The notes below the pieces were generated by a model that did not search any database, had not been told where the DNA came from, and saw only the letters and a list, made by a program, of their open reading frames with translations. 64,000 nucleotides of DNA from Phenylobacterium sp. (GTDB lineage: Bacteria; Pseudomonadota; Alphaproteobacteria; Caulobacterales; Caulobacteraceae): assembly GCA_017991675.1 (NCBI GenBank), contig JAGOQB010000008.1, positions 36,501 through 100,500 on the forward strand, in the 5' to 3' direction. The position numbers and the translations under genes were made by a program. Below are positions 37,261 through 58,593 of this stretch, one piece after another. Positions within the stretch are counted from its first letter, which is position 1; each line of letters begins with the position of its first letter.

Positions 37261-37486
37261 GGCGGTGTTCTTTCGGCTTCCGTGAGCGTCGCGTCTCGCC
37301 GCGAAGCGGGCGGGCGATGGCGATGGTGCTGGGGCTTATATCGCAATCATAGCACAGGAGTTCCACCCCGGCCCGCGCCGCAATGGCGCCGCCACCATGT
37401 CGAGTGGGGCGCTGTGGAACGCTCCTTGTACGTGCGAAACCTGTAGTTCAGTATATGGATCATTCTGGGACGGCAGGGCTAGTTGG

Positions 37487-38941: not shown

Positions 38942-39879
38942 CGCGCCCGCTCCGCCATGCGCCGGGATTGGTGGGGCAGGCCGAGTTGCTGCGCGCGCCG
39001 CTTAAGGCGCAGCCCAAAGCGGTCTTCGTCGTCAATCCAAAGGCCGGCGACGGGCCAGGGAAGTTTGTCCGGCTCCTGGAGCGCCGACTGCCGCCTGCGG
39101 CGCTTCGATACGACGTCGCCATGACCACGGCGGCGGGGGACGGCGAGCGTATTGCGGCGAACGCCGCGGCCGCGGGCTATGACATCGTTGTGGCGGTGGG
39201 CGGCGACGGCACGGTCAACGAGGTCGCTCGCGGCCTGCTGCGGGACCCCCGGGCGGCGCTGGCGATCATACCGACGGGTTCAGGCAACGGAGCGGCGCGC
39301 CATCTTGGTATTCCACTCGGCGTGTCGGGCGCCTTGAAGGTTCTCAATCGCCCGACTGCGACGAGAATAGACGTCGGGCTGATCAACGGGCACCCCTTCC
39401 TCTGCACAGCGGGCCTTGGCTTCGATGCGCATGTCAGCAAGCATTTCGCGCGCTCGAAGACCCGCGGGATGGCGACCTACGCCAGGATCGCCCTTCAAGA
39501 ATACAGTGGCTTCCGATCCAAGCCGATCCGGCTGCATCTCGACGGGCAGGGGATCGACCACGACTGCTATGTGCTGGCGTTCGCCAACGCGGCCCAATAC
39601 GGCAACAATGTCTTCATCGCACCGCTGGCTGACGTGGCTGACGGGCTACTGGACCTGTGCCTGATTGAGGACATGCCCATTCGCAGAGCTTTGCGGGTGG
39701 CCTATGGGCTTGCGGCGGGCGATCTGCCGAAGTCCCGGGCGGCGATTTACTACAAGGCCAGCCAGACCGTCGTGACGGCGCAAGAGCCGATCGGCTTCCA
39801 CGTCGACGGCGACTACATGGGCGAGAGCGACCGTTTTGAGGTCTCTGTCTCGCCGCTCGCGCTCCGCGTCTGCGTGTGA
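38938..39879 (+). CDS. Diacylglycerol/lipid kinase family protein
   Basis: A 313-aa kinase of the DgkB/YegS family. The nucleotide-binding motif is GGDGTVNE at residues 88-95. VFVVNPKAGDGPGKF at the N-terminus, IIPTGSGNGAARHLGIP and the C-terminal HVDGDYMG block are all conserved. It phosphorylates a lipid hydroxyl, probably diacylglycerol to phosphatidic acid, at the inner face of the membrane. It is translationally coupled to the LtaS-like phosphotransferase. The first 25 residues are an extra extension relative to YegS. Confidence 0.9.
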   Translation: MTRPLRHAPGLVGQAELLRAPLKAQPKAVFVVNPKAGDGPGKFVRLLERRLPPAALRYDVAMTTAAGDGERIAANAAAAGYDIVVAVGGDGTVNEVARGLLRDPRAALAIIPTGSGNGAARHLGIPLGVSGALKVLNRPTATRIDVGLINGHPFLCTAGLGFDAHVSKHFARSKTRGMATYARIALQEYSGFRSKPIRLHLDGQGIDHDCYVLAFANAAQYGNNVFIAPLADVADGLLDLCLIEDMPIRRALRVAYGLAAGDLPKSRAAIYYKASQTVVTAQEPIGFHVDGDYMGESDRFEVSVSPLALRVCV

Positions 39880-41623: not shown

Positions 41624-41673
41624 CTTTGTGTGGCCAAGCTTGCGTAACAGTGTTCTGCCTGTTTTATGCTGGC

Positions 41674-41716
41674 GGCGACGTCGGCGACGTCGGCGACGTC
41701 GGCGACGTCGGCGACG
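41674..41716 (+). repeat. 9-bp tandem repeat, 4.8 copies of GGCGACGTC
   Basis: Four exact copies of GGCGACGTC (41674-41709) are followed by a partial copy to 41716. The unit length keeps an open frame (Gly-Asp-Val repeats) in a 92-codon plus-strand frame at 41572-41850. Its flanks look non-coding, so I do not call a gene. Slippage could make the copy number vary among strains. The rest of the gap (41717-41958) must carry the promoter of the following large gene; I see no clear operator. Confidence 0.75.
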
Positions 41717-41958
41717 AGAGGCGCGGGGCGACCGCATTTGCGATCGTCTCGGCGTGGTCGCTTTCAAGATCTTGGCGTCATGCCGGTCCGCGGGACCAGG
41801 CCAATAGTGACTTTAGCTTGCTCGGAGTTCTGATGTCAGTGGTGTGTTAGGGTGAGGACCAGTACTGCGCGGCCGCCTGCCTTGTCTCAACTGAGGTAGA
41901 GCAGAGGTCGGGCGCAGTCAGCCCTCGCGCGCCGGACGGTTGTTGGCGAGGGTGTTCC

Positions 41959-44900
41959 TTGAACCAAATCCGCGAAAGCGCCCGACTGCCGTCGAGCAGG
42001 CGCGAAAAGCAGCACCTCGTTCTGAGTCCGAATGAAGAACGCTATGTGCTGGCCGAGACGCTCACGCCGCACATCTATATCCTGCCGTTCACCTACCGCA
42101 TTCGTGGCCGCCTGGACGTCGCGAAGCTCGAAGAAGCGCTGCAGTATGTCTGCGACCGTCACGAAACCATGCGCCAAGGGTTCGAGCCGGGCGCCGACGG
42201 GCGGTTCGAGAAGTATGTCGAAGCGGCCGGCGATGCATCGTTGCTCTACGTCGACATGGCAGGCGCGGGCGCGGACGAAGTCCAGTCCCTGATCCATGAG
42301 CGCCTCTTCCGCAAACCGGATCTTACGCCGTGCTCCCTGCATACCTTCGTGCTCGTCCGTACCGGAGAAGACGAGCACGTCCTGAGTATTTCGCACCATC
42401 ACAGCACCAGTGACGGTCAATCGATGCGGTTGTTCACGCGCGAGCTGTTCGACCGCTACAGCGGTGTGGAGGTCTCGGCCACGCCCGTGGATTTCAGCGC
42501 GCTTTGGGAAGGCGATTGGCGAAATTCGGAGCGATACGAGGCCGCCTCGGCCTTTTGGCGCAATTGCCTGAAGGACGTCGAGGAGCTGGTTCCCCTGCCC
42601 GAGGACCGCCCATCGGGCGGCAGCTCGGAAGAGCTAAGCGTCAGGCTGACGCTGCCGCCCGAGCTGATCGAGGCGACGGACGCGGCGGCCAAGGCGCTCG
42701 GCGTCTCGCAGTTCACGTTCTTCTATGCCGTCTGCGTGGTGTTCCTGGCGCGGTTGACCGGCGAGAAGCTGCTGTGCACGGCGTTTCAGAGCAACGGGCG
42801 GCGCCTATTCGACGACGCGGTCAACGTCACTGGCGCGTTCTCGAATGCGTTGGTGCTGGCGACGCCGCTTGAGGAGCAGCGGCCGTTCGCCGACCTGGCG
42901 CGCCGGTTGAAAGTCGATATCCGGGCGGCGATCGACAACGAGATCTGCCCCTACCACCACGTCATTCAGGACAGCGGCCTGCATCCGCGGTTCGGGATCA
43001 ACTGGTATCCCTTGCTGCCCAAGCTGGTCGCCGAGGGGCTGAACGTCTCCGACGCCGACCTGTCGGATCGCCAAAGCGACTACGACCTCAACATCCGGTT
43101 CGTGCGCGGCGTCGACAGCTTTGAGGTGATCCTGTTCCACCATCTGGGCACGAGCCCTGAGCGCGTCCTCGACGGCGGCCGCCGGCTGTTGGAGCTTGCC
43201 GGGGCCTTCGCTCGCGATCCTGACCGGCCCATCGCCGATGTGCAGTCGAGGGACTTCGACTCGCAGGGCGTCCTGCCTGATGTCGCCGCCTCGCTTCCGG
43301 TCGCCGCCGGCGGCGTGTTGCACGCGCGGTTCCTGGAGGCGGCGAAGCGAACACCCGAGGCGATCGCCCTCGTGCAAGCGGGCGGCGCGACGACCTACGG
43401 CCAGCTGGAGGAGCGCAGCCTCGTCCTGGCGCGTAAACTCTGGCGCGCCGGTGTGCGCCCCGGCGACCGCGTGGGGATCGTGGCCGAGCGGACCTCGTCC
43501 CTCGTCTGGTCGATGCTGGCGGCCTCGCGCCTTGGGGCGACCTTTCTGGTCCTCGACAGCGGCTATCCGGAAGATCGGCTGCAAACCTTGGTCGGAATCG
43601 CGCGCCCCAAGGCGCTCCTGCACGTCGAGGGGCTCGACGAGCTCGCCCTGAATCTGGCTCGCCCCGACGATCTCATCGTGTTGGGTGCGGACGTGTCCCA
43701 TGATCGGGCGGGGCCGGCCGTCGATGGCGAGAGCGATTGGCTGGATCGGGCCGATCCGGAGGCGCCGGCCTACTATCTCATCACCTCGGGAAGCACCGGG
43801 ACGCCAAAATGCGTGGCGGTGTCGCACCAGCCCGTGCCGCACTTTGTCGAGTGGCAGGCGCGGACCTTCGAACTTGATGCGCGCGACCGCTTCACCATGC
43901 TTTCGGGGCTCGCGCACGACCCGCTGATGCGGGACATCTTCACGCCCCTCTCGTTGGGCGCGACGCTGCTGATCCCGGAACAGTCGGCGATTTCCGAGCC
44001 GGGAGAGCTGCCGCTGTGGTTTGCGCGGGAGCGGCCGACCGTCGCGCATCTGACCCCGAGCATGGGGCGTCTCCTCACCGCCCAGGGCAAGAAGCCGGTG
44101 CGCCTCGGGGATCTGCGCCTCTGCTTCTGGGGCGGGGAATTGCTCGCGCCGGGACTGATCGAGGCGGTCCGGAAGGTCGCCCCGTCGGCGGAGCATGTGA
44201 ATTTCTACGGCTCGACGGAGACGCCGCAGGCTGCGTCCTACTTCCGCTGCGGCGAGGACCTGGACTGGAAGTATGCGCCGGTCGGCACGGGCAGCGACGG
44301 CTTCCAGGTGTTCGTCGTCGATGCCGACCGGCGGCAGGTCGGCGTCGGTGAGCTCGGCGAGATCGCGGTGCGGTCCAACTATCTTAGCCTGGGCTATGTC
44401 CGAGACGGCCGTGTCCTGGCGCCGGATGACCGGGGCGAGGACGTCTTCGGTCGGCGTAACATCTATTTCACCGGCGATCGCGGGTTCCATATGCCCGACG
44501 GCCGGGTGGTCCTGCTTGGCCGCCAGGACGACCAGATCAAGGTTCGGGGCTATCGGGTCGACCTGTCCGAAGTCACGGCCGCTTTGTGCGGCCTGGCCGG
44601 CGTTCGAGAAGGCGTCGCCCTGGCCGACGGTCCCGAAGGCGATCGCCGCATTCGCGCCTTCGTGGTCGACGAACGGGCGGGCGCCGATGGCGCCGGCGAA
44701 CTGATGGCGCAACTGCGGCGGAAGCTGCCCAGCTACATGGTTCCGGCCGCCCTCGAGCGCCTGGACCGCCTGCCTCGGCTCCCCAACGGGAAGATCGACC
44801 GCAAGGCGCTGGAGGCGCGGCCGCAGGTCGCCGCTGTCGAGACCGCTCGCCCGAAGATGAGCGCAGCGGAATCCGAGCTCGCCGCCGCCTGGTCCAGCGT

Positions 44901-46080
44901 GCTGGGGCGACGTGACATCGGCCCGTCCGCATCTTTCGCTGACATTGGGGGCGACAGCCTCTCCTACGTGCAGGTCTATCTCGCGACGGAGGAGATCGTC
45001 GGCGTCGTGCCCGACGGTTGGCAATTCATGAGCATTCGCCAGATCGCCGCGTCCAAGCGCAAGGCGAAGGCGTTTCTGGGCGTGGTCGACACCAGCATGC
45101 TGGTGCGCGCGATTTCGATATTCCTTGTCGTCTGCGGCCACTTCCACGTGTTCACCTACAACGGCGGCGCGACGACGGCCCTGTTTCTGGTCTCGGGGTT
45201 CATGTTCGGCGGCCTGCAGTTGACCGAAACGCTCCAGCGCAACAGCGCCAAGCCGGTCCTCTCGCTCTTCCTTCGGCTGCTGGTTCCGGTGGCGCTCTTT
45301 TCCTACGCCCTGTTCGCGCTGAAGTTCGCGGTGGGGAAGGGGCCGAACCTATCGGTCCTGCTGTTCTATGGGAATTTCGCAGACTACGCCGTCTTGGAAG
45401 CGCCATACCGAGACGGTCACGAGATGTATCTTTGGTACATACACTGCGCGCTGCAGATGTTCGTGATGATGTATCTGGCGTTGCTTGCGATGAAGGCTGT
45501 AGGCGCGTTCGCCTGGGGGCGCTTCAAGGTGGCGATGGCGCTGTTCGCCTTTGCATGCCTTCTGCGTTTCGTCCTTCCAGGCTTGGTCGATCCCGACTTC
45601 TTCGTGAACGGCGCGCAGCCCATGGCCACGGTCAACCATCTGCCGACGACGCACTGGGCGACCTTCCTCTTGGGCGCGACCATAGCGAGTGTGGCCACGA
45701 AGACCGAGCGGGCGACGATCTTCATCGCCACCCTGATCTACACCGCGCTGAGCTATGTCTTCTTCAGCACCTCGAGTTGGGCGTTCTTGGGCGTGTTCGG
45801 CCTGATGCTGCTGTTCATGAGCCGCGTGTATGTCCCGAAGCTGGTGAGCCGGCTTGTGCTGATGCTCTCGGGCGGTTCGCTGTTCATTTATCTGACCCAC
45901 TTCCAGTTCCGGTCGGTGTTCGAGGCGGTGGGCGTTCCCGAGTGGCCGTTGCTGTATGCGGTCGGCGCGATCGGCGGCGGGCTTGTGGTCTGGATGACGT
46001 GGCAGCGGATCAGCGTCGCGGTCACACGGTTTTTCGGCATGCGCCGGTCGGTCGATGCGGAGCCGGATGCTGTGATCTAG
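41959..46080 (+). CDS. NRPS-like fusion: condensation, adenylation, carrier, membrane acyltransferase-3
   Basis: A 1373-aa protein of unusual architecture, starting with TTG behind GAGGGTG. A condensation domain (about 20-430) has the intact HHxxxDG motif at 147-153. An adenylation domain (about 450-950) shows A3 ITSGSTGTPK (609-618), A4-like LAHDPLMRD with Asp654 at the position that binds an alpha-amino group, A5 FYGSTE, A7/A8 YFTGD and GRQDDQIKVRGYRVD, and A10 Lys945 in LPNGKIDRKA. A carrier domain has FADIGGDSLS with Ser1000 for phosphopantetheine. From residue about 1047 there are some ten membrane helices of the acyltransferase-3/OafA type, with R1050-X10-H1061. It should activate an amino acid, and the fused helices suggest transfer of the product to an extracytoplasmic acceptor. 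No thioesterase is present. Confidence 0.93.
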   Translation: MNQIRESARLPSSRREKQHLVLSPNEERYVLAETLTPHIYILPFTYRIRGRLDVAKLEEALQYVCDRHETMRQGFEPGADGRFEKYVEAAGDASLLYVDMAGAGADEVQSLIHERLFRKPDLTPCSLHTFVLVRTGEDEHVLSISHHHSTSDGQSMRLFTRELFDRYSGVEVSATPVDFSALWEGDWRNSERYEAASAFWRNCLKDVEELVPLPEDRPSGGSSEELSVRLTLPPELIEATDAAAKALGVSQFTFFYAVCVVFLARLTGEKLLCTAFQSNGRRLFDDAVNVTGAFSNALVLATPLEEQRPFADLARRLKVDIRAAIDNEICPYHHVIQDSGLHPRFGINWYPLLPKLVAEGLNVSDADLSDRQSDYDLNIRFVRGVDSFEVILFHHLGTSPERVLDGGRRLLELAGAFARDPDRPIADVQSRDFDSQGVLPDVAASLPVAAGGVLHARFLEAAKRTPEAIALVQAGGATTYGQLEERSLVLARKLWRAGVRPGDRVGIVAERTSSLVWSMLAASRLGATFLVLDSGYPEDRLQTLVGIARPKALLHVEGLDELALNLARPDDLIVLGADVSHDRAGPAVDGESDWLDRADPEAPAYYLITSGSTGTPKCVAVSHQPVPHFVEWQARTFELDARDRFTMLSGLAHDPLMRDIFTPLSLGATLLIPEQSAISEPGELPLWFARERPTVAHLTPSMGRLLTAQGKKPVRLGDLRLCFWGGELLAPGLIEAVRKVAPSAEHVNFYGSTETPQAASYFRCGEDLDWKYAPVGTGSDGFQVFVVDADRRQVGVGELGEIAVRSNYLSLGYVRDGRVLAPDDRGEDVFGRRNIYFTGDRGFHMPDGRVVLLGRQDDQIKVRGYRVDLSEVTAALCGLAGVREGVALADGPEGDRRIRAFVVDERAGADGAGELMAQLRRKLPSYMVPAALERLDRLPRLPNGKIDRKALEARPQVAAVETARPKMSAAESELAAAWSSVLGRRDIGPSASFADIGGDSLSYVQVYLATEEIVGVVPDGWQFMSIRQIAASKRKAKAFLGVVDTSMLVRAISIFLVVCGHFHVFTYNGGATTALFLVSGFMFGGLQLTETLQRNSAKPVLSLFLRLLVPVALFSYALFALKFAVGKGPNLSVLLFYGNFADYAVLEAPYRDGHEMYLWYIHCALQMFVMMYLALLAMKAVGAFAWGRFKVAMALFAFACLLRFVLPGLVDPDFFVNGAQPMATVNHLPTTHWATFLLGATIASVATKTERATIFIATLIYTALSYVFFSTSSWAFLGVFGLMLLFMSRVYVPKLVSRLVLMLSGGSLFIYLTHFQFRSVFEAVGVPEWPLLYAVGAIGGGLVVWMTWQRISVAVTRFFGMRRSVDAEPDAVI

Positions 46081-46328
46081 CTGGCCCGCAGCTCCCGCGC
46101 CGGCTTGCCGATGTCGTCGGGGCGAGCGGCGGGCGGGGCGGGCCGTCGCGGCGGCGCGATCATCTGGGGGCTGGATCGGGACGTCGTCCGGGTTCATCAT
46201 CTGCAAGTTATTTTCGCGTAGCGACGTTCCGGGTTCGGCGGCTCTGCCGCCTGCGACCCTCGGTCTGGCCCGAATTGTGCAGGGGCGTGGCTGCTCGGAA
46301 TTAACAGTATTGCTTAGGGGCTGGTGTC

Positions 46329-46574
46329 TTGCAGACTATCTACGATTGGGTCACGGTCGCGATCTTCGGCGCGTTGATCGTCCTGTTTCTGCACAGGTCG
46401 ACAGCTCAGGAAGAGCCGAAAGACAACATCTATCAGTATCTGCCGGCGTGCGTTGGCTGCGCGCTGGCCAATTACGTCGGTAATGAGGGATATGGGGCGG
46501 CGGCCTTCGCGATCATTGTCGCGGTTCTGGCCTATGTTGCTTATGTCCTGAAGCCGTTCAACTTGAAGTTCTGA
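46329..46574 (+). CDS. XrtV sorting system accessory-like small membrane protein
   Basis: An 81-aa protein starting with TTG (MQTIYDWVTVAIFGALIVLF). Two or three hydrophobic segments are seen, with YLPACVGCALANYVGNEGYG between them and a basic end (LKPFNLKF). The YDWVTVAIF and ANYVGNEG blocks match my memory of small proteins annotated as accessory to exosortase V in sphingomonads and Caulobacterales. The exosortase itself is not in this window. It sits between the two NRPS-like fusion genes in the same orientation. The 248-base gap before it (46081-46328) holds no convincing gene; only a 28-codon minus-strand frame is open at its left side. Confidence 0.65.
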   Translation: MQTIYDWVTVAIFGALIVLFLHRSTAQEEPKDNIYQYLPACVGCALANYVGNEGYGAAAFAIIVAVLAYVAYVLKPFNLKF

Positions 46575-46664
46575 CCGGACCTCACGGTCCGGGAGTATCC
46601 CCTTCGGTCGCGCAAGGCATGGGGCTGACGACGCGGCCAGACCAGACAGGCGGGGGCCGAACCG

Positions 46665-49289
46665 TTGAGTGCGTCAGAAATTGCCGCTCAGTCCGTCCCG
46701 CTCACGGCTACGTTCGCCGGACGCCTTGAGGAACACGGCCACGCCTTGGCGGTGGCCACCGACGACGGCGAGCGTCTCAGTTACATCGATCTTGCGGCCC
46801 GCGCCGACGATTTCGCCGCCAGCCTGCCGCCGGGGCGGCATCTTCTGCTGATCGAGGCGGCCAACGAACTGGCGCCGCTGGTCGCCTACATCGCGGCGCT
46901 GCGTCACGGGCATCCGGTGATCATGGCCGGAGACGGCGGCGCCGGACAGTTGCAGCGGACCATCGAGACCTATCGGCCAAGCATCCGCTTTCGCAAGGAT
47001 GGCGCGCGCTGGCGCGTCGAGACCGGCCCGCGCGGCCCGCGGAACCTGCATCCTGACCTGGCGGTGCTGCTGTCGACCTCCGGCTCGACCGGTGCGGCCA
47101 AGCTGGTGCGCCTGGATCGCGGCGCGGTCGAAGCCAATGCGCAGTCGATCGGCGAGTATCTGGGCCTGACGTCCGACGACCGGGCGATCACCACCCTTCC
47201 GATCCACTACAGCTATGGCCTGTCGGTGGTGAATTCGCACCTGGCGGCGGGCGGCGCGATCCTGCTGACCGGCCGCTCGGTGGTCGATGACGCGTTCTGG
47301 GATTTCTTCGCGACCGAGGCGGCGACCTCGCTGGCCGGGGTCCCCTACACCTATGAGCTGTTCGAGCGCATCGGCCTGCGGCTCCGCGAGCTGCCTTCGC
47401 TGCGTACGATGACCCAGGCCGGCGGGCGCCTGCCGCCGGAGACGGCGCGGACCTACGCCGAATGGGCGCGAGGCGCGGGCGTGCGCTTCTTCGTCATGTA
47501 CGGTCAGACCGAGGCGACGGCCCGGATGGCCTACGTCCCGCCCGAGTTGCTGTTGGACAATCCAGGCTGCATCGGGATGGCGATCCCGGGGGGTGCATTT
47601 CATCTCGTCGACGAGGTCGGCCGGGTCGTGGACGGTCCCGAGGCCCAGGGCGAGCTGGTGTATCGCGGCCCCAATGTGATGTCGGGCTACGCGCTGGCCG
47701 AGGCGGACTTGGCCAAGGGGCGCGAGCTTTCCGAGCTGCCGACCGGCGACCTGGCGATGCGCGACGCGCACGGTCTCTATCGGATCGTGGGACGCAAGAC
47801 CCGGTTCTCCAAGCTATTCGGCCTGCGCATCAGCTTCGATGAGGTCGAGGATCGGCTGCGGCGGCAGGGCGTAAGCGCGATCGTCAGCGGAGACGATGAA
47901 CTGCTGGCGGTGGGCGTGGTCGGCGCCGAGCCGCAGATGGTGGCCGAGGAACTGTCCGAGGCGTTGTCGCTGCCAGTCTCCGGCATCGTGGCGATCGGCT
48001 ATGATGAACTGCCCACGCTGAGTTCGGGCAAGATGGACTATCAGGCGCTGCTGGCCGCGGCGCGGGCCGCGCCGGCGCGCCGGCCGCCGGCCCCGAGCAG
48101 CGGGAGCAGGGTCATCGAGGGCGCATTTCGCCACGCCTTCCCACGCGCGGTCATCACCCCGGCGGACAGCTTCGTCAGCCTGGGCGGCGACTCCCTCGGC
48201 TATGTCGCCCTGTCGCTCGAGATCGAGGGGCGTCTGGGCTTCCTGCCGGAGCGCTGGGAGGAGGCGAGCATCGCCGAACTGCAGGCGCTGGCCGACAAGG
48301 CTGTCACCCGCAGCCGCGGGGCCTTCAGCCTGCGCGGCATCGAGTCGGAGGTCGCCATCCGGGCGGCTGCGATCATCAGCGTGGTGATCTCGCACGCCTC
48401 TGCCTGGCCGATCGGCGGCAGCGCGCATGTGCTGCTGATGCTCTCAGGCTACAATTTGTCCCGCTATCAGGGCTCGCGCCTCAATGACGGCGGCGGGCGC
48501 TCGATGCTGGCCACCTTCTTTCAGCGGATCATCGCGCCCTACTACGTGATCCTCTGTCTCTACCTGATCTCCGAAAAGACCTTCGACCTGCCGTCGCTGC
48601 TGTTGGTGAGCAACTTCTTCGGCCGCTTCGGCAGCTTCCTGGAGCCGTACTGGTTCCTGGAGGTGCTGTTCCAATGCATGGTGGTCCTCGCATTGCTGTT
48701 CGCCATCGGGCCGGTGCGCCGGTTCGCGGTGCGACGGCCTTGGGATTTCGGTCTGGCGTTGCTGGCCGCGGCGCTGGCCGTGCGGGTGATCGCCTCCCTG
48801 ATCCTGCCGCACGAGCACCTGCTGGAGCGGACCCCCGACAGCGTCTTCTACCTGTTGGCGTTCGGCTGGTGCCTGCACCGGGCCACGACCACGCCGCACA
48901 AGCTGCTGCTGACCCTGGCGTGCCTCCTGATCGCGGGGCTGCAGTACGCAGGTCCTCAGGTGGTCTGGGAGCATTTCCAGCGCCCCGCCAACGTGACCCA
49001 CGCGCTGTGGTTCGCCGCGGCGGCCGGGCTGATCTTGTGGGCGCCGCGGGTCATCCTGCCCAACCTGCTCCACGGCCTCGTCGGCCTCATTGCGGCGGCG
49101 AGCTTCTACATCTACCTGACCCATGGCGTGCCGGTGCACGCCTTCCTGTATGTGCTGCACGTCCACAACGTCCCGCTGATCCTGGCGGTGTCGCTGGTGC
49201 TGGGCGTAGCGGCCTACAAGATTTCGGAGAAAGTGTCGGAGCGGCTGGTCCGGGCCCACCCGGGGCAGCAGCGAGAAGTTGTTCAGTAG
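46665..49289 (+). CDS. NRPS-like fusion: adenylation, carrier, membrane acyltransferase-3
   Basis: An 874-aa protein starting with TTG 46665. The adenylation domain (about 10-460) has A3 LSTSGSTGAAK (136-146), an acyl-ligase-like A4 region PIHYSYGLSVVNSHL without the amino-binding Asp, A5 MYGQTEATARM, TGDLA, and A10 Lys456 in LSSGKMDYQAL. The carrier domain (about 483-545) has SFVSLGGDSLGY with Ser510. Acyltransferase-3-type membrane helices run from residue about 560 to the end, with R566-X10-H577 and SGYNLSRYQG. There is no condensation domain. The missing Asp suggests a carboxylic (acyl) rather than alpha-amino substrate. It parallels the C-terminal half of the upstream fusion protein and is presumably its functional partner. 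Confidence 0.92.
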   Translation: MSASEIAAQSVPLTATFAGRLEEHGHALAVATDDGERLSYIDLAARADDFAASLPPGRHLLLIEAANELAPLVAYIAALRHGHPVIMAGDGGAGQLQRTIETYRPSIRFRKDGARWRVETGPRGPRNLHPDLAVLLSTSGSTGAAKLVRLDRGAVEANAQSIGEYLGLTSDDRAITTLPIHYSYGLSVVNSHLAAGGAILLTGRSVVDDAFWDFFATEAATSLAGVPYTYELFERIGLRLRELPSLRTMTQAGGRLPPETARTYAEWARGAGVRFFVMYGQTEATARMAYVPPELLLDNPGCIGMAIPGGAFHLVDEVGRVVDGPEAQGELVYRGPNVMSGYALAEADLAKGRELSELPTGDLAMRDAHGLYRIVGRKTRFSKLFGLRISFDEVEDRLRRQGVSAIVSGDDELLAVGVVGAEPQMVAEELSEALSLPVSGIVAIGYDELPTLSSGKMDYQALLAAARAAPARRPPAPSSGSRVIEGAFRHAFPRAVITPADSFVSLGGDSLGYVALSLEIEGRLGFLPERWEEASIAELQALADKAVTRSRGAFSLRGIESEVAIRAAAIISVVISHASAWPIGGSAHVLLMLSGYNLSRYQGSRLNDGGGRSMLATFFQRIIAPYYVILCLYLISEKTFDLPSLLLVSNFFGRFGSFLEPYWFLEVLFQCMVVLALLFAIGPVRRFAVRRPWDFGLALLAAALAVRVIASLILPHEHLLERTPDSVFYLLAFGWCLHRATTTPHKLLLTLACLLIAGLQYAGPQVVWEHFQRPANVTHALWFAAAAGLILWAPRVILPNLLHGLVGLIAAASFYIYLTHGVPVHAFLYVLHVHNVPLILAVSLVLGVAAYKISEKVSERLVRAHPGQQREVVQ

Positions 49290-51023: not shown

Positions 51024-52088
51024 TTGCGCATTCTTGTCACCGGCGGCGCCGGCTTCATCGGCTCGGCCCTGATCCGGCATCTGATCGCCGAAACCGAGCA
51101 CGAGGTGCTGAACCTCGACAAGCTGACCTATGCCGGGGACGAGCGTTCGCTGGACGGCGTGGCGGGCAACAACCGCTATTCGTTCCGCAAGGTCGATGTC
51201 GCCGACGGCGGTGCGGTGCGCGCGGCCCTGCGCGACTTCCGCCCGCACGTGGTGACCCATCTGGCGGCGGAATCGCATGTCGACCGTTCGATCGACGGTC
51301 CGGCCGAGTTCATCCAGACCAATATCATCGGCACCTTCGTGATGCTGTCCGAGGTGCTGGCCTACTGGCGCGGCCTGGACGAGGCGGCCCAGGACGGCTT
51401 CCGCTTCCACCACATCTCGACCGACGAGGTGTTCGGATCGCTGGGCGACACCGGCTTCTTCACCGAGACGACGGCCTACGACCCGCGTTCGCCCTATTCG
51501 GCCTCGAAGGCCTCGTCGGACCACCTGGTGCGGGCCTGGCACCACACCTACGGCCTGCCGGTGCTGGTCACCAACTGCTCGAACAACTACGGCCCGTATC
51601 ACTTCCCCGAGAAGCTGATCCCGCTGATGATCGTCAAGTGCCTGGCGGGCGAACCGCTGCCGGTCTACGGCGCGGGCGCCAACGTCCGCGACTGGCTCTA
51701 TGTCGACGACCACGCCCGGGCCCTGACGCGGGTGTTCGAGGCCGGGGCGCCAGGCGAGAGCTACATCATCGGCGGGCGGGCCGAGCGCACCAACCTGCAG
51801 GTGGTGCACGCAATCTGCGAGGCGCTCGACCGCCTGCGGCCGCGTGGGGACGGCAAGTCCTACAAGGAGCAGGTCAGTTTCGTCGCCGACCGGCCGGGCC
51901 ACGATCACCGCTACGCCATTGATCCGACCAAGCTCGACCGCGAGCTCGGCTGGCGGGCGGCCGAAAGCTTCGACACCGGAATCGAGAAGACCGTCCGCTG
52001 GTATCTCGACAACGACGCCTGGTGGGCCCCGATCCTGGCGAGCAGCGACGTGGGTCAACGGCTGGGCCTGAAGACCGTCGGCGCATGA
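51024..52088 (+). CDS. rmlB: dTDP-glucose 4,6-dehydratase
   Basis: A 354-aa short-chain dehydrogenase-fold enzyme converting dTDP-glucose to dTDP-4-keto-6-deoxyglucose with bound NAD+. The TTG start gives [20 protein letters not shown] with the Rossmann motif. [28 protein letters not shown] (catalytic Thr-Asp-Glu) and [14 protein letters not shown] (Tyr/Lys) are all present, as is [20 protein letters not shown]. Its stop overlaps the rmlD start. This is the first gene of an rmlB-rmlD-rmlA operon supplying deoxysugar to the surrounding polysaccharide genes. Confidence 0.97.
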
Positions 52089-52999
52089 CCTCGTTGGCCG
52101 CCACGGCGGACGTGCTGCTGACCGGCGGCAGCGGTCAGGTCGGAACCGAGATACGTCGACAGGCTCCGGCGACGATGAACATCGTCGCGCCGTCGAGCGC
52201 GGCGATGAGCCTGGGCGACCCGGACGCGATCCTGGCGATGGTCGCCTCGCGGCCCTGGGCCGCGGTGATCAACTGCGGCGCCTATACCGCCGTCGACCGC
52301 GCCGAGAGCGAGGTGGTCGAGGCCTGGCGGGCCAACGCCCTTGGCCCTGCGGCCCTGGCGCAGGCGACCGCCGCCGCGCAGATCCCGCTGATCCACGTTT
52401 CGACCGACTATGTGTTCGACGGCTCCCGGCCCGGCGCCTATCGCGAGTCCGACCCGGTGGCGCCGCTGGGCGTCTATGGCGGTTCCAAGGAGGCCGGCGA
52501 GCAGGCCGTCCGCACCGGCAATCGCCGCCACCTGATCCTGCGCACGGCCTGGGTGGTCAGCCCGCACGGAACCAACTTCATCAAGACGATGCTGCGGCTG
52601 GCGCAGACCCGGCCCGAGGTGCGCGTGGTCGATGACCAGCGCGGCTGCCCGACCAGCGCGGCCGACATCGCCGCGACCCTGCTCAAGATCGCCGGCCGGA
52701 TGATCGCCGAGCCGTCGGCCCCGACCGGCACCTATCACTTCGTCAACGCCGGCGAGGCGACGTGGTGCGAACTGGCGCGGGCGGTGTTCGAAATGGCGCA
52801 GGCGCGGGGGACCCCGGCGCCGCGGCTGGAAGCCATCACCACGGCGGAGTTTCCGACCCCGGCCCGCCGGCCGGCCAATTCTCGCCTGGATACGGCCAAG
52901 TTGCAGGCCGACTACGGGATCGAACCGCGCCCCTGGCGGGCGGCGGTGGAAGACATTGTCGAGGCGCTGCTTCCCGCCACGCAGGAACAAGGACTTTAG
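52085..52999 (+). CDS. rmlD: dTDP-4-dehydrorhamnose reductase
   Basis: A 304-aa reductase producing dTDP-L-rhamnose. [19 protein letters not shown] is the cofactor-binding start. [29 protein letters not shown] and [13 protein letters not shown] (catalytic Tyr/Lys) are family signatures, and [20 protein letters not shown] is also typical. The ATG at 52085 overlaps the rmlB stop (ATGA), and the rmlA ATG follows its stop directly. No rmlC epimerase gene is in the window although the pathway needs it. Confidence 0.95.
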
Positions 53000-53893
53000 A
53001 TGAAGGGCATCATCCTGGCCGGCGGCTCGGGCACCCGGCTGCATCCGGCCACCCTGGCGGTGAACAAGCAGCTGCTGCCGATCTACGACAAGCCGATGAT
53101 CTATTACCCGCTGTCGGTGCTCATGCTGGCCGGCATCCGGGACATCCTGATCATCTCGTCGCCGGAGTACATCGACAACTACCGGCGGCTGTTCGGGGAC
53201 GGCTCGAACTTCGGACTCAATATCGAGTACGCGATCCAGCCGAAGCCCGAGGGGCTGGCCCAGGCTTTCCTGATCGGCGAAGACTTCGTCGGCGACGAGC
53301 GCGCCGCCCTGGTGCTGGGCGACAACATCTTCTTCGGCGCGGGCATGAGCCGGCTGCTGAAGAACGCGGCGGACCGCCAGGACGGGGCGACGATCTTCTC
53401 CTATGAGGTCGACCAGCCCCAGGCCTACGGCGTGGTCGAGCTGGACGACACCGGCCGCGCGATCAGCCTGGAGGAAAAGCCTGCCGAACCGAAGTCGCGC
53501 CAGGCGGTCACCGGTCTCTATTTCTACGACAACCGCGTCGTCGAATTCGCCAAGCAAGTCCGCCCCTCGGCCCGCGGCGAGCTGGAGATCACCGACCTCA
53601 ACCGCATGTACATGGAAGCCGGGGACCTGTTCGTCGAGCAGCTGTCGCGGGGCTACGCCTGGCTCGACACCGGCACGCACGAGAGCCTGGTCGAGGCTTC
53701 GGAGTTTGTGCGGGCGGTTCAGAAACGCCAGGGCGTGCACATCGCCTGCCTGGAAGAGATCGCCTACATCAACGGTTTCATCGACCGCGACCAGCTGCGC
53801 GTGCGCGGCAAGCTGTTCGAGAAGACCGCCTATGGCAAATACCTGCTCGACATCGCCGAGCAGGAGGCTCCGCCGAGCCGGCGGCTGATCTAG
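53000..53893 (+). CDS. rmlA: Glucose-1-phosphate thymidylyltransferase
   Basis: A 297-aa nucleotidyltransferase making dTDP-glucose. The activation motif [20 protein letters not shown] is at residues about 8-27 and is followed by [33 protein letters not shown] holds the metal-binding Asp, and [17 protein letters not shown] is near the C-terminus. Length is normal. Its ATG follows the rmlD stop without a gap, and its TAG stop lies inside a dispersed repeat (53892-53992). Confidence 0.97.
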
Positions 53894-53992
53894 AGCATTT
53901 TCCGCCGAAGTGGCTGCCGGTTCGGCGAAGAAAATGCTCTAAATTCAAGGAGTCATGAGCAAAATCCGATCTAATAAGAACGGATTTTGCTC
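53892..53992. repeat. Bipartite dispersed repeat, well-preserved copy
   Basis: The left hairpin is nested: AGAGCATTTT (from 53892) pairs with AAAATGCTCT (to 53940), enclosing CGCCGAA and TTCGGCG. The right hairpin is perfect: GAGCAAAATCCG (53957-53968) with CGGATTTTGCTC (53981-53992). AAATTCAAGGAGTCAT links them. The layout is shared with the degenerate copy at 3710-3808. It fills the whole space between rmlA and the convergent beta-helix gene and could act as a bidirectional terminator; both stop codons fall at its edges. Confidence 0.85.
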
Positions 53993-55014
53993 TAGGGGGC
54001 GGCGGGCGGCCGGATCGGGCTGAGACTCGGCCGGTCCTTGACGACGAGGTCCTCGTTGTCGCTCTGGAGCAGCTTCCAGTAGCGGTTCTTGAACACCTGG
54101 CCGCGGGTGACGTAGGTGAGGCTGATGCGCGCATTCATGCCCTCGTAGGGCTGAACGGTGTTGCCCGAGACCTCGACGTCCTCGGCGTGCGCCACGGCGA
54201 TGCCGTTGTACATCGAGCCCTCGATGACATTGTCGCGGATCACCACCCGGCGATAGGGCAGGGTCCCAACCTGGTCGGTGATGAAGATGCCCTGCATGAT
54301 GCCGCCGGACCCGCGGCGGATGCGGTTGCCGATGATGGTGATGTCTTCGGCCGAGGCCGTGGCGTTGCGGCTGAACAGCTGGATGGCGTCCGGGTGCGCG
54401 CCCGGCGTCGGGTCGAAGTCGGCGAAGTCGTTGCCTTTGATCAGCAGCCGTGAGGCGCCGTTGCTGGTGACGCCGTCGGCGCCGAGCCCTCGGAAGGTGT
54501 TGGCCTCGATCGTCACGTCGGCGCCGCCGGACAGAACGATCCCGTTCCGGAAGCCGGAGAAGGATGACTTCTCTACGCGAACGTTGCGGGAGTTGGTGAA
54601 GACGAGGCCCTGGCCGGTCCGCAGGCCCCGCGCAGTCAGCTCGCTGAACTGGATGTCCTGGCTGTCGTTGACGGCGAGCCGGCCCGCGCCTGGCTGGTCG
54701 AGCGCCATGGTCAGGCCGACGATCCGCAGGCCTGCGACGTTCGTCAGTACGAAGCCGGTGGCCTGTACGTCCCGCGCGATCAGGGTGACGGGCGTGTCGA
54801 ATCTGAGATCGCTGAGTGCGACCTGAGCGTAGTCGCCCGGCGCCAACACCACCGTCGCGCCAGGGCCGGCCGCCTTCATCGCCAGGGTCAGGGCGGGGGC
54901 GTTGCGGACCGTGATCGGCCCGCGTTCGGCGACGCGCTCAAGCGGCGGCGCGGAGCGCTGCGCTCGCTGAGGCGCGGCGTCGGCGTTGAGGGCCCAGAGC
55001 AGGATTTCCAGCAT
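53992..55014 (-). CDS. Right-handed parallel beta-helix protein
   Basis: A 340-aa protein made mostly of beta-helix coils. Examples of coil steps are NVAGLRIVGLTMALDQPGAG, SRNVRVEKSSFSGFRNGIVL and GADVTIEANTFRGLGADGVT. HPDAIQLFSR and GIMQGIFITDQVG are shared with the neighbour at 55072-56688. The fold is used by polysaccharide lyases, epimerases and phage-like depolymerases; no lyase signature is decisive here. The N-terminus (MLEILLWALNADAAPQR) is a poor signal peptide. In this context a role in trimming or modifying the polysaccharide is plausible. A catalytic Asp could lie in HPDAIQ, but that is inference. Confidence 0.8.
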   Translation of the reverse strand: MLEILLWALNADAAPQRAQRSAPPLERVAERGPITVRNAPALTLAMKAAGPGATVVLAPGDYAQVALSDLRFDTPVTLIARDVQATGFVLTNVAGLRIVGLTMALDQPGAGRLAVNDSQDIQFSELTARGLRTGQGLVFTNSRNVRVEKSSFSGFRNGIVLSGGADVTIEANTFRGLGADGVTSNGASRLLIKGNDFADFDPTPGAHPDAIQLFSRNATASAEDITIIGNRIRRGSGGIMQGIFITDQVGTLPYRRVVIRDNVIEGSMYNGIAVAHAEDVEVSGNTVQPYEGMNARISLTYVTRGQVFKNRYWKLLQSDNEDLVVKDRPSLSPIRPPAAP

Positions 55015-55071: not shown

Positions 55072-56688
55072 TCAGGCCGAGACGATCCACCCGTCGGAGA
55101 GCGACGACATCTGGACGTTGGCCAGGACCATGCGCGCGCCGCCCGCGAGGTCGATGACGACGTCGCCGCCGACCTGGCTCACCGTGTAGCGGGAGCCGTC
55201 GCCGACGAAGACCCGGTCGCCCTCGGCGCGGTTGAAGTCGGTGACCAGGTCGAGGCCGGCCTGGCCGAAGATGTGGAAGGTGTCGGCTCCGGCGCCGCCG
55301 GTGACGGTGTCGTCGCCGAGGTCGCCTGACAGCCAGTCGTCGCCGTCGCCGCCGATGACGACGTCATTGTGCTGGCCGCCGCGCAGGGTGTCGGCGCCGA
55401 TCTCGCCGTAGATCGTGTCGTCGCCGAGGTTGCCGAGCACCAGGTCGGAGCCGGCGCCGCCGAGCAGCAGATCGTTATGCTGGCCGCCCGCGACCCAGTC
55501 GTCGCCGCCGCCGCCGTGGATCGTGTCGTCGCCGGTATTGCCGTTGATGTCGTCGAAGCCGCCGCCCCCCGCGATGCTGTCGGCGCCGTCGCCGCCGCGC
55601 AGGTAGTCGGCGTACTCGCGGCCGGTGATGATGTCGTTGCCGGCCCCGCCCTCGATCCGGCTGCCGCCATCGATGCGGGCGCTGAGTTGGTCATCGCCGT
55701 CGCCGCCCTTGACCCAGTGGGCGAGCGCGTTAGCGCCATTGTCGGTCAGCGCCGCGATGATCGCGTTGCCGGACTGCGTCAGGTTGGTGTTTCCCGTCAG
55801 GACGTAGGTCGCCGCCTGATTGTCGCTCAACTGAGCATTGGTCGAGTTGTTGACGCGGATCCACGACTTCTGGTCGCCATACGAGGCCACGACGTTGCCG
55901 TCGATGACCACCCCGTCGGCCCAGGTGACCATGATGCCGTTGTACATCCCGCCGACAACAACGTTGTCGGTGACAGTGACCCGGTCGTAGCCGATGCCGG
56001 CCTGGTCGGTGATGAACACGCCCTGGATGATGCCGCCATCGCCGCGCGTGATCAGGTTGCCGCTGACCAGGATGTCATGGGCCCGCACCGTCGTGCCCGT
56101 AGTCAGGAACTGGATCGCGTCCGGATGGTCGCCATTCGCGGGGAAGAAGTCGGTGAATGCGTTGCCGACGACCTGGACCCTCGAGGTCCCGGCGCTCATC
56201 ACCCCGTCCGAGCGCAGGTCGTGGAAGCTGTTGTTCTCGACCCGCACGTCGCTGCCGCCCATCATGGCGACGGCGTGGGAGAATTCCTGGAACTCCGAGC
56301 CGAACACCTTGACGCCGGTGCTGTTGCGGATCAGTAGCGCGTTCTGGTCGTCAGCGGGGTTGTTGTTCAATGAGCCGTGGAAGTTGAGCCCGCTCAGCGT
56401 GATGTTCTTGGAATCGACGATCTGCGCATTCCAGACAGTCCAGGGTGAGCTGAAGTCCATGTGCAGGTTGCTGAAGGTCAGCCCCTGACTGCCATGCACC
56501 GTAAGGCCGGTCAGGGTCGCCGGGTTGCCGGGATCCCTCGACGTGATCGTCACCTCGCCATCGAATACAAAGTTTCTCAGTTGAACGTTAGAGTAGTTGC
56601 CTGCCTCCAGGAGAATTCTATCTCCGGCCTTGGCGGCGCCAAGTGCAGCGGTAAATTCGGCGGCGCTAGCGCACAGGATATCGGCCAT
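55072..56688 (-). CDS. Parallel beta-helix protein with RTX calcium-binding repeats
   Basis: A 538-aa protein. The N-terminal beta-helix (about 1-325) parallels the protein at 53992-55014: HPDAIQFLTTG, GIIQGVFITDQAG and GGMYNGIMVTWAD recur. From about residue 330 it carries roughly a dozen RTX nonapeptides (GGDGDDQLS, GGAGNDIITG, GGGGDDWVAGG, GGAGSDLVLG) and an uncleaved C-terminal tail. This suggests type I secretion and calcium-dependent folding outside the cell. It looks like a modular secreted polysaccharide lyase or epimerase, in the manner of AlgE enzymes but without their active-site motif. MADILCASAAEF at 56688 is taken as the start; a GTG at 56766 is possible. Confidence 0.87.
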   Translation of the reverse strand: MADILCASAAEFTAALGAAKAGDRILLEAGNYSNVQLRNFVFDGEVTITSRDPGNPATLTGLTVHGSQGLTFSNLHMDFSSPWTVWNAQIVDSKNITLSGLNFHGSLNNNPADDQNALLIRNSTGVKVFGSEFQEFSHAVAMMGGSDVRVENNSFHDLRSDGVMSAGTSRVQVVGNAFTDFFPANGDHPDAIQFLTTGTTVRAHDILVSGNLITRGDGGIIQGVFITDQAGIGYDRVTVTDNVVVGGMYNGIMVTWADGVVIDGNVVASYGDQKSWIRVNNSTNAQLSDNQAATYVLTGNTNLTQSGNAIIAALTDNGANALAHWVKGGDGDDQLSARIDGGSRIEGGAGNDIITGREYADYLRGGDGADSIAGGGGFDDINGNTGDDTIHGGGGDDWVAGGQHNDLLLGGAGSDLVLGNLGDDTIYGEIGADTLRGGQHNDVVIGGDGDDWLSGDLGDDTVTGGAGADTFHIFGQAGLDLVTDFNRAEGDRVFVGDGSRYTVSQVGGDVVIDLAGGARMVLANVQMSSLSDGWIVSA

Positions 56689-56766
56689 GAGGTTCGCGTC
56701 TTCTCTATTCTGGTCGCAGCCCCCGCTGAACTCATCCGACCATAGCGTGTGAAGTTCAACGGTCAC

Positions 56767-57012: not shown

Positions 57013-58593
57013 ATGTGGGCGCGCAGCGACAATGACGGCCGGAGTTCGCGGCCGGTTATCCTGAGACCCTATACCCGTCCGGGCCCCGGGCGCTTGGTTC
57101 AGGCCGCGCTCCTGCTCGCCTTTATGGGCTTTTGCCTGTTCTTCGGCTTCTTCTACGGGCTGACGACGCCGTACCTGATCAAGCAGTTGGTCATTCCGAT
57201 CGTTCTGCTCGCGCTGGTGGCGATCTGGGCGCTGCCGGACGTCAAGACGGCGCCGACTGGGGCGCTGTACGGGCTGAGCTTCGCCTTCCTTATCGTGCTG
57301 TTCCTGTGGCCGAACTACCTGGCGGTGGCGCTGCCGGGCCTGCCCTGGATCACGCTGATGCGGCTGGTCGGCGTGCCGATGGCCCTGGTGCTCATCGTCA
57401 GCTACTCGATGTCGCCGGCCTTCCGGGCGCAGATCAAGGACACGCTGAATGCGACGCCGCTGGTCTACAAGCTGCTGGCTGGATTCGTGCTGATCCAAGT
57501 CGTCACGATCGCCTTTTCCAATTCGAAGGACCATTCGATCCAGCGGGTCTTGAACGCCCAGCTGACCTGGACTTCGATCTACTTCGCGAGCGCGTTCGTG
57601 TTCCTCAAGCCGGGGCGTGTGCACCGCTGGGCCCTGACGCTCTGGGCGGTCACGGTCATCGTCTGCCTGATGGGGTTTCTGGAGTACAATATCAGCCGCC
57701 CGGCGTGGGGCGCGCATGTGCCCAGCTTCCTGAAGATCGAAGACGAAAGCGTGATCCGCTCGCTGACCGGGAGCGCCCGTTCGGCGACCGGCAAATACCG
57801 CGTGCAGAGCACGTTCTCCACGCCGCTCGGCCTAGCGGAATTCCTGGCGCTAACCGCTCCGTTTGTCCTCCACTTCGTGATGTTCGGGAAGAACCTCGCC
57901 ACGCGTATCGCCGCGGCGGCGACCATGTCGATGATGCTCTACATCGTGATCGGCACCGATTCACGGCTGGGCATGGTCGGCTTCCTGCTGTCGTTCATGC
58001 TCTATCTGCTGCTCTGGAGCTGGCTGCGCTGGCGGGCGGACAAGGCCAGCCTGCTCGCGCCCGCCATCGTGCTGGCCTATCCGGCGATCTTTGCGCTGTT
58101 CATCGCCGCGACGTTGTTCGTCAGGCGGCTGCGCAACATGGTCTGGGGCACCGGCGCCACCGCGGCGAGCACGGAGGCGCGCGGGACGCAGTGGGAAATG
58201 GGCATCCCCAAGATCCTCAAGGCGCCTTGGGGGCATGGCGCGGGGACGGGCGGGGACACGTTGGGTTTCCTCAGTCCGATCGGCATCCAGACCATCGACA
58301 CCTACTATCTGACTATCGGCCTAGAGTACGGCGTGATCGGTTTTGTCGTCTATTACGGGATGTTGGTCGCCTCGACCTACTATGCCGCGAAATACGCGGT
58401 CCGATCCCCCAAGGGCGAACTTAGCTACTTTATGCCCGCCGCCATCGCTTTGGTGAACTTCATTGTCATCAAGTCGGTGTTCAGCCAGCAGGACAATCAC
58501 CCGCTGATCTTCATGCTGATGGGTATTGTCACGGCGATGGTCTACCGCGCGACCCGCGAGAATCCCGACGTAGCGGCTCGGACCGGAGCCTAG
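57013..58593 (+). CDS. O-antigen ligase/polymerase family membrane protein
   Basis: A 526-aa membrane protein with about 11-12 helices and a sizeable loop around residues 210-260 that leads into SATGKYRVQSTFSTPLGLAE. A second loop carries GTQWEMGIPKILKAPWGHGA and GTGGDTLGF. That second pattern (W..G....AP..GHG.G) is typical of the Wzy_C/WaaL superfamily, which joins or polymerises lipid-linked glycans on the periplasmic side. In this locus a polysaccharide polymerase is more likely than an LPS ligase. The start ATG follows GGGAGAAG. The 3' flank is occupied by transposase debris. Confidence 0.87.
   Translation: MWARSDNDGRSSRPVILRPYTRPGPGRLVQAALLLAFMGFCLFFGFFYGLTTPYLIKQLVIPIVLLALVAIWALPDVKTAPTGALYGLSFAFLIVLFLWPNYLAVALPGLPWITLMRLVGVPMALVLIVSYSMSPAFRAQIKDTLNATPLVYKLLAGFVLIQVVTIAFSNSKDHSIQRVLNAQLTWTSIYFASAFVFLKPGRVHRWALTLWAVTVIVCLMGFLEYNISRPAWGAHVPSFLKIEDESVIRSLTGSARSATGKYRVQSTFSTPLGLAEFLALTAPFVLHFVMFGKNLATRIAAAATMSMMLYIVIGTDSRLGMVGFLLSFMLYLLLWSWLRWRADKASLLAPAIVLAYPAIFALFIAATLFVRRLRNMVWGTGATAASTEARGTQWEMGIPKILKAPWGHGAGTGGDTLGFLSPIGIQTIDTYYLTIGLEYGVIGFVVYYGMLVASTYYAAKYAVRSPKGELSYFMPAAIALVNFIVIKSVFSQQDNHPLIFMLMGIVTAMVYRATRENPDVAARTGA

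Follow-up and report, generated by a model that had tools for sequence, protein, structure and literature searches.

Acyltransferase-3 proteins of Phenylobacterium with built-in adenylation and carrier domains: a candidate branch fed in cis instead of by coenzyme A

How does a membrane acyltransferase obtain its acyl group when the enzyme that would activate the acid and the carrier that would hold it belong to the same polypeptide? This question is raised by a 64,000-nucleotide stretch of Phenylobacterium sp. DNA (contig JAGOQB010000008.1, positions 36,501 to 100,500; hereafter the window), which encodes two proteins that end in an acyltransferase-3 (AT3) membrane domain: P1, of 1373 amino acids (aa), in which a condensation (C), an adenylation (A) and a peptidyl carrier protein (PCP) domain precede it, and P2, of 874 aa, in which an A and a PCP domain do so. 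AT3 enzymes (also TmAT) decorate lipopolysaccharide, capsule, peptidoglycan and exopolysaccharide, and the portions of published work drawn on here treat acyl-coenzyme A (acyl-CoA) as their donor. We consider it probable that P1 and P2 represent a branch of these enzymes that is fed in cis by its own carrier domain instead of CoA, a reading based on the observed architecture, conservation, CoA-site change and gene context, from which we infer the chemistry, which donor and acceptor are used and in which direction the group moves.

Fused carriers and an altered CoA site

Both open reading frames (ORFs) were verified, each with TTG as its start codon (Table 1), and the residues singled out by the original prediction, namely the carrier serines S1000 and S510 and the R-X10-H pairs R1050/H1061 and R566/H577, are all in place. 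In P1, Pfam called Condensation (1.9e-45), AMP-binding (2.8e-63), PP-binding (6.7e-5) and Acyl_transf_3 (PF01757, 8.9e-8), with AMP-binding_C (6.2e-5) at 24.3 bits falling slightly below its cut-off of 24.5; in P2 it called AMP-binding (2.8e-40) and Acyl_transf_3 (1.7e-12, 47.5 bits against a cut-off of 31). PP-binding stayed below the Pfam reporting threshold in P2, though the motif GGDSL with S510 is present, and G508-D509-S510-L511 is invariant in a 56-sequence family alignment. The features of a non-ribosomal peptide synthetase module (A-domain core motifs and carrier Ser) were found, along with HHxxxDG in the C domain of P1; the A-domain core residues are invariant in 16/16 family members aligned, and the carrier Ser is present in 24/24 fused proteins of the first set. 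Orthologues of P2, at 89, 83, 82, 76, 63 and 53% identity, are stop-free over at least residues 15-859 of its 874, and because they stay open over nearly the full length, P2 is no chance ORF.

The model of whole P2 (mean predicted local distance difference test score, pLDDT, 89.3) comprises an A domain, a carrier bundle at residues 483-545 and about ten long helices at 561-864; its best fold matches, oxalyl- and malonyl-CoA synthetases and MenE (5ie entries among them), all fall on the A domain. The model of P1 from carrier to end (pLDDT 90.5; predicted template modelling score, pTM, 0.90) matched PCP structures at its carrier with a probability of up to 0.97, and its only significant viral match was one unnamed protein of 637 aa (probability 1.00, TMq 0.50). 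As originally proposed, loading enzyme, thioester carrier and AT3 membrane domain lie in one polypeptide (by Pfam, with the P2 carrier by motif and model), and the C-terminal helices, which might have belonged to an unrelated transporter family, score as AT3 above the Pfam cut-off in both proteins.

A donor held on a carrier would leave the AT3 part with no need of a site for the nucleotide end of CoA, an expectation that was tested by alignment. In the sections of one study drawn on here, the conserved TmAT set consists of an Asp and an Arg in transmembrane helix 1 (TMH1-Asp, TMH1-Arg), TMH2-Phe and TMH2-Gly, TMH3-Arg, TMH6-Gly and TMH9-Tyr; most conserved elements bind acyl-CoA, mostly touching its adenosine and 4-phosphopantothenate part, and TMH9-Tyr sits at the mercaptoethylamine end (PMC12423673). 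Another reports, in the sections drawn on here, binding of the CoA 3'-phosphate by R14 and R74, an essential role for the residues of R-X10-H and RXXR, and a channel entrance flanked by the N-terminus together with helices 9 and 10 (PMC9833829). It is at this N-terminus, the end bordering the entrance, that the fused carrier joins the AT3 domain.

We compared 104 fused AT3 rows, 24 from the family search and 80 from a genome scan (99 distinct, five loci being in both sets), with 31 standalone AT3 rows from the same order (29 distinct, with two identical pairs). At the place of the first RXXR Arg (TMH3-Arg1) no fused row has a basic residue (0/104), as against Arg in 31/31 standalone rows. TMH2-Phe is found in 2/104 fused versus 30/31 standalone rows and the Asp of DxxR in 0/104 versus 19/31, and a Glu of 27/31 standalone AT3s is absent from 24/24 fused domains in the first alignment. 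Retained are TMH1-His of R-X10-H (104/104 and 31/31, both window proteins included), TMH2-Gly (103/104 and 29/31), TMH6-Gly (103/104 and 31/31) and TMH9-Tyr (101/104 and 31/31). Because the standalone rows came mostly from the top of the score list, a low-score control of 20 stretches was added: two gave no match (L185, L199), one was itself fused, with Phe at TMH3-Arg1 (L194), and the 17 usable standalone rows have Arg (16) or Lys (1) at TMH3-Arg1 and Arg2 throughout (17/17), with the alignment less sure in the two control rows that lack an aligned TMH1-Arg (L183, L195). Selection bias or an alignment slip as the cause of the RXXR contrast is partly ruled out by this control; nearby basic residues remain.

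Judged by these alignments, RXXR is broken or moved throughout the fused family, whose AT3 domains would thus form a divergent branch, not ordinary members of AT3, with RXXR missing from its usual place. The changes appear to fall on the CoA-nucleotide side and the retained residues on the thioester side, TMH1-Arg excepted. Since a carrier arm lacks the 3'-phosphate of CoA, the loss of RXXR suggests that the built-in carrier has replaced CoA, as would be expected from the own-carrier donor of the original prediction, which is strengthened by this result; the one phosphate of the arm could be bound by the kept TMH1-Arg. The carrier itself has E, P and W spaced after the active Ser in 100/104 fused rows (101 with a looser pattern), which may be a docking face for AT3.

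We propose that the A domain would activate a carboxylic acid with ATP and that the acid would be loaded as a thioester onto the phosphopantetheine arm of the adjacent PCP. From its attachment at the cytoplasmic N-terminal end of AT3 helix 1, the PCP would then swing this arm into the AT3 channel, where acyl-CoA would otherwise bind, and the acyl group would pass to an acceptor at the outer face via the retained centre of R-X10-H and TMH9-Tyr.

Spread, origins and pairing of the fusion

The genome scan, made with one genome per species and the carrier-AT3 part of eight members as query, matched at least 593 stretches, of which at least 502 encode relatives; the results that follow rest on the best 80 of these. 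All 80 have the carrier Ser followed by R-X10-H, where the conservation of the carrier is selected for because the scan pattern held the carrier motif, and that of the AT3 residues is not. Stop-to-stop frames measure 794-987 aa in 78/80 (L131 and L158 are shorter), and the hosts belong to Pseudomonadota (55), Actinomycetota (17), Cyanobacteriota (4), Verrucomicrobiota (1) and Myxococcota (1), with two assigned to no phylum; the PCP-AT3 order with its short linker is kept across the five named phyla. The A-PCP-AT3 architecture is not rare: it is a large cross-phylum family. In our searches of open-access PubMed Central (PMC) papers we found no A-PCP-AT3 protein described and, in agreement with the original prediction, no published pathway with this pair.

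Trees built without the RXXR, DxxR-Asp and TMH2-Phe columns place most fused AT3s in one clade (Shimodaira-Hasegawa-like approximate likelihood ratio test, SH-aLRT, 100 in a quick tree of 73 rows, with 40 fused rows; 100/99 in a careful tree of 62 rows, which omitted the long row L083 and ten others). This clade also contains, as a nested group, the P1 type that bears the C domain. At two loci (L058:8532-11342, minus strand; L059:9021-11777, plus strand) A-PCP is fused to an AT3 of another subfamily; these group with the standalone L061, L067 and L071 (100/97, careful tree) and have Gln in the position of the first RXXR Arg, which is kept in their standalone neighbours. A single origin appeared in 0/200 bootstrap trees, and the two are apparently an independent fusion. 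We see about an even chance that the fused proteins constitute a CoA-free cross-phylum class, in which the carrier arm threads the AT3 channel and takes acyl or aminoacyl groups through the membrane, and which arose at least twice with RXXR broken each time, a natural experiment on the role of that motif.

P1 and P2 had been read as a tandem pair forming a unit. P1 does precede P2 on the same strand, but a third gene, encoding an XrtV sorting system accessory protein, lies between them, and the unit does not survive comparison: in 5/5 relatives (L041-L045) the slot holds P2 and no P1, and A-PCP-AT3 alone makes up the large family described above. A P1-like gene directly precedes a P2-like gene at another Phenylobacterium locus (L109) and directly follows one in Sandaracinobacteroides (L115); with P1 absent from the five P2 slots, the pair recurs but is not fixed. 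The two types lie on separate contigs in genome G123, and at 69 of the 71 scan loci where the gene caller found a family member, it is the single one within 8-kb flanks. Judged in this way, the observation behind the original prediction is correct and its proposed mechanism seems sound and is now backed by residue-level prediction; its emphasis on the pair is not.

The window's own genome holds four fused genes: P1, P2, the P1-like L008 and the P2-like L009. The P1 paralogue (L008:9312-12737, minus strand) has an N-terminally shortened condensation domain and no HHxxxDG. The P2 paralogue (L009:501-9925, plus strand) lies beside a 1914-aa DUF4347/RTX protein, which did not cluster with genes of L048 and L049, the loci that hold the orthologues.

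Gene context and substrate clues

The surface-polymer setting proposed for the locus is borne out, in that P2 lies within a surface-polysaccharide cluster (Table 1). Its slot is part of an XrtV-type (exosortase-V) exopolysaccharide cluster conserved in five related genomes, where the XrtV accessory gene comes before P2 and the ATPase and rmlBDA genes after it. Onward from P2, genome G193 has, in this order, a Wzy-type gene, glycosyltransferases, a standalone AT3, two beta-helix/RTX genes and an export protein, then EpsF, EpsG, exosortase V, EpsI type V, a pyruvyl transferase, a flippase and a sugar-nucleotide dehydrogenase; NF035943 (349 bits) and NF045608 were matched among the exosortase V and EpsI type V genes. 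In G098, G123, G193, G156 and G088 the contig that carries P2 also has an exosortase gene, at a distance of about 11-31 kb; none was found in the window's own genome assembly, which is 71% complete, and the window extends to the contig end. The acceptor of P2 is probably the exopolysaccharide of this surrounding XrtV-type cluster, or its lipid-linked repeat. A polysaccharide context was also found at a Verrucomicrobia locus (L112), and no common acceptor gene emerged from the neighbour survey of fused loci.

The XrtV accessory gene is present in 25/60 genomes of the genus, at 27 loci (L203-L229), whose 1.5-kb flanks hold a fused gene in 4/27 and a standalone AT3 in 3/27. Because the fused gene is near only 4/27, the accessory gene marks the cluster and is no specific partner; an AT3 within 1.5 kb at 7/27 loci may reflect a link with AT3 proteins. 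A fixed operon of P1, accessory gene and P2 is ruled out, as P1 is missing in L041-L045 and the accessory gene mostly occurs without a fused gene nearby.

Table 1. Features of P1, P2 and the neighbouring gene cluster, in window coordinates
Feature	Coordinates	Strand	Evidence
P1, C-A-PCP-AT3, 1373 aa	41959..46080	+	ORF list, Pfam
P1 condensation domain, residues 18-383, HHSTSDG motif present	42010..43107	+	Pfam 1.9e-45, motif
P1 adenylation domain, residues 460-945, probably of amino-acid type, motif SGLAHDPLMRDIF	43336..44793	+	Pfam, NCBIfam, alignment
P1 carrier domain	44875..45006, S1000 at 44956-44958	+	Pfam, model
P1 AT3 domain, R1050 and H1061 present; L1103 at first RXXR Arg place, R1106 at second	45100..45993	+	Pfam, alignment
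XrtV sorting system accessory protein, 81 aa, between P1 and P2	46329..46574	+	NF045607, 119.4 bits, cut-off 35
P2, A-PCP-AT3, 874 aa	46665..49289	+	ORF list, Pfam, model pLDDT 89.3
P2 adenylation domain, about residues 17-468, probably of acyl type, motif HYSYGLSVVNSHL	46713..48068	+	Pfam, alignment, model
P2 carrier domain, about residues 483-545	48111..48299, S510 at 48192-48194	+	Motif, family alignment, model
P2 AT3 domain, residues 561-864, modelled with about ten membrane helices; R566 and H577 present; F618 at first RXXR Arg place, R621 at second	48345..49256	+	Pfam, model, alignment
AAA/STAND-type ATPase, conserved beside P2	49430..50929	+	Family clustering
rmlB, dTDP-glucose 4,6-dehydratase	51024..52088	+	NCBIfam scan
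rmlD, dTDP-4-dehydrorhamnose reductase	52085..52999 (scanned as 52022-52996; start from gene caller)	+	NCBIfam scan
rmlA, glucose-1-phosphate thymidylyltransferase	53000..53893	+	NCBIfam scan
F1-family gene without RTX repeats, right-handed beta-helix by eye	53992..55014	-	Family clustering; no NCBIfam match at 1e-8
F1 protein with C-terminal RTX repeats, beta-helix by eye	55072..56766	-	Clustering; Pfam calls similar beta-helix and RTX genes in G193
Wzy-type O-antigen ligase/polymerase family gene (F10)	57094..58593	+	Clustering; G193 gene at same place PF04932; window copy without NCBIfam match at 1e-8

The original prediction allowed for an acyl or an aminoacyl group, and the sequence clues split by protein. 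Aligned with malonyl-CoA synthetase and with 3wvn, the A domain of P2 has no Asp for an amino group, with Ser/Tyr there, and substrate prediction gave nothing beyond this absence; its pocket motif HYSYGLSV, with close variants, recurs in about 40-46 of the 56 aligned members by place, and about ten have another pocket. In the A domain of P1, the Asp of HDPLMRD aligns with the LgrA Asp at the amino-group place. HDP..RD is found in 9/13 members of the P1 clade (P1, L008, L050, L051, L052, L054, L055, L056 and the L109 copy); L057 differs, and no such segment was found by pattern in L053, the partial L060 or the L115 copy. From the presence and absence of this Asp, P2 is expected to take a small acid other than an amino acid, and P1 an amino acid that is perhaps N-acylated: by this comparison the acid of P2 is probably not an alpha-amino acid, and P1 probably activates one, which its N-terminal C domain, whose best PDB matches are ordinary condensation domains, could N-acylate first. 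The motif HDPLMRD recalls fungal alpha-aminoadipate reductases, a resemblance that we take as a lead only; TIGR03443, the second NCBIfam match of P1, reached 326.7 bits against a cut-off of 1030.1.

Further genes near the fusions deserve mention. At 12 loci, mostly actinobacterial (L153:6537-12764, L142, L147, L159, L160, L162, L167, L174, L175, L178, L180 and L181), an A-PCP-AT3 gene lies near a three-gene set of binding protein, permease and ABC-ATPase (by Pfam on the L153 copy), which may import the acid to be activated. Upstream of P1, the window has a short tandem array of GTCGGCGAC units, seen by eye at about 41671-41718, and, at 37397-39879 on the plus strand, genes for a sulfatase/LtaS-like membrane enzyme and then a YegS-type lipid kinase, neither with a relative among the 22 loci compared by family clustering.

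Competing readings and known systems

Several observations weigh against a carrier-fed AT3. P1 reaches 32 bits for Acyl_transf_3, barely above the cut-off of 31, and its PCP-AT3 model returned 0 PDB matches at E <= 0.001 (Foldseek), with no AT3 relative, so that the AT3 assignment rests on Pfam and motifs and not on a solved fold; the pTM of the whole-P2 model is only 0.60, which leaves its domain arrangement unsure. L059 has an Arg one place before its Gln, and an approximately unbiased (AU) test of a single clade gave p = 0.052, making two origins borderline. Beyond Phenylobacterium and the Verrucomicrobia locus, the neighbours scanned (1-3 per locus, at few loci), those of rhizobial and actinobacterial loci included, are not polysaccharide genes; they are GST, DinB, ATP-grasp, binding-protein, alanine-dehydrogenase, gatCAB and ABC-importer genes. 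Such neighbours would suit a two-module assembly line of P2 and P1 that releases a small acyl-amino acid or lipopeptide, its AT3 serving for release, with a lipid, an alcohol or an exported small molecule and not a polymer as the recipient. We regard this as unlikely. It would account for the HHxxxDG C domain at the start of P1, which requires an upstream acyl donor, and for P1 and P2 adjoining in the window, L109 and L115; yet P2 stands without P1 in the polysaccharide slot of five genomes, and a single family member lies within the flanks at nearly all scan loci (69/71), so P2 seems not to need P1, and each protein has an AT3 of its own, superfluous for an upstream module.

The altered CoA site, for its part, would signify changed CoA binding and says nothing of a replacement donor. 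The AT3 could still take acyl-CoA, or be degenerate, with A-PCP serving another pathway and the fusion being for co-localisation only. TMH1-Arg, a contact of the CoA 3'-phosphate too, is present in every row (104/104 fused, 31/31 standalone), TMH3-Arg2 is R in 50/104 fused rows (11 + 39) versus 31/31 standalone, and an Arg or Lys lies within one residue of the TMH3-Arg1 place in 53/104 (12/24 + 41/80). A shifted R-x-x-R up to five residues off, for example one turn earlier, occurs in 15/104 fused rows (L054 of the first 24 and 14/80 scan loci), with R-x-x-R in 31/31 standalone rows. Some members may therefore have a nearby Arg that takes over this role; neither window protein is among them, P2 having F618/R621 and P1 L1103/R1106. 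We nevertheless hold this alternative to be quite improbable, in that a degenerate domain that had lost TMH2-Phe and the aligned TMH3-Arg1 would not have kept R-X10-H in every fused row and TMH9-Tyr in nearly all, TMH3-Arg1 is likewise changed in the second fused lineage, and the order and short linker of PCP and AT3 are constant over five named phyla. It seems very improbable indeed that P1-type proteins make an amino-acid homopolymer like the Pls/PosA synthetases, with AT3 replacing the C-like domains: P1 does join an A domain of probable amino-acid type, a PCP and a membrane domain in one chain, and a Pls A domain (7wew) is among the matches of its A domain, but Pfam assigns its membrane part to AT3, the best 25 of the 98 NCBIfam families that it matched include no Pls/PosA model, and Pls synthetases are not known to begin with a C domain.

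If P1 and P2 are indeed fed by their own carriers, a large AT3 branch that brings along both activating enzyme and carrier would extend the range of acyl groups that can be placed outside the cell and would provide a one-gene tool for polymer decoration, and both the role of the essential RXXR and the entry of the donor into the AT3 channel would become testable. The P2-type proteins of rhizobia, streptomycetes and cyanobacteria would predict surface or exported acyl modifications in these organisms, for which we know of no enzyme.

Among known systems, Dlt (DltA-DltC-DltB) likewise places an AMP-forming ligase, a phosphopantetheine carrier and a membrane acyltransferase in series to acylate a surface polymer, but it uses separate proteins and an MBOAT; here the carrier is fused within one polypeptide, the membrane domain is PF01757, and the A domain of P2 shows no amino-group Asp in the alignments. 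The lipid A glycine system AlmE-AlmF-AlmG also has its A domain, carrier and membrane-side acyltransferase as separate proteins, with a different acyltransferase fold and lipid A as the acceptor. Aas, a fusion of acyl-ACP ligase and phospholipid O-acyltransferase, has in common with P1 and P2 an AMP-forming ligase and an acyltransferase in one chain, and differs in its PlsC-type acyltransferase on the cytoplasmic side and in having no known fused carrier. In the Pls/PosA synthetases, the membrane part is not known to be AT3 and the product is a homopolymer; an A domain and a PCP fused to a membrane part are what they share with our proteins. The portions drawn on here of two reports deal with them as membrane-bound poly-amino-acid synthetases (PMC8117764, PMC10522769). 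With the AT3/TmAT proteins OafB, OatA, Oac and OacB (PF01757), finally, P1 and P2 share the Pfam domain, R-X10-H, TMH6-Gly, TMH9-Tyr and, for P2, about ten modelled helices and the polysaccharide context. The AT3 fusions named in the sections consulted are with SGNH, racemase and NRF domains, not with carriers (PMC9558356, PMC9833829, PMC12423673), and Pfam called no SGNH domain in P1 or P2. What distinguishes the P1/P2 family from these relatives is a donor enzyme and carrier at the N-terminus, together with the lack of a basic residue at the first RXXR Arg place in 104/104 rows and the loss of TMH2-Phe in 102/104.

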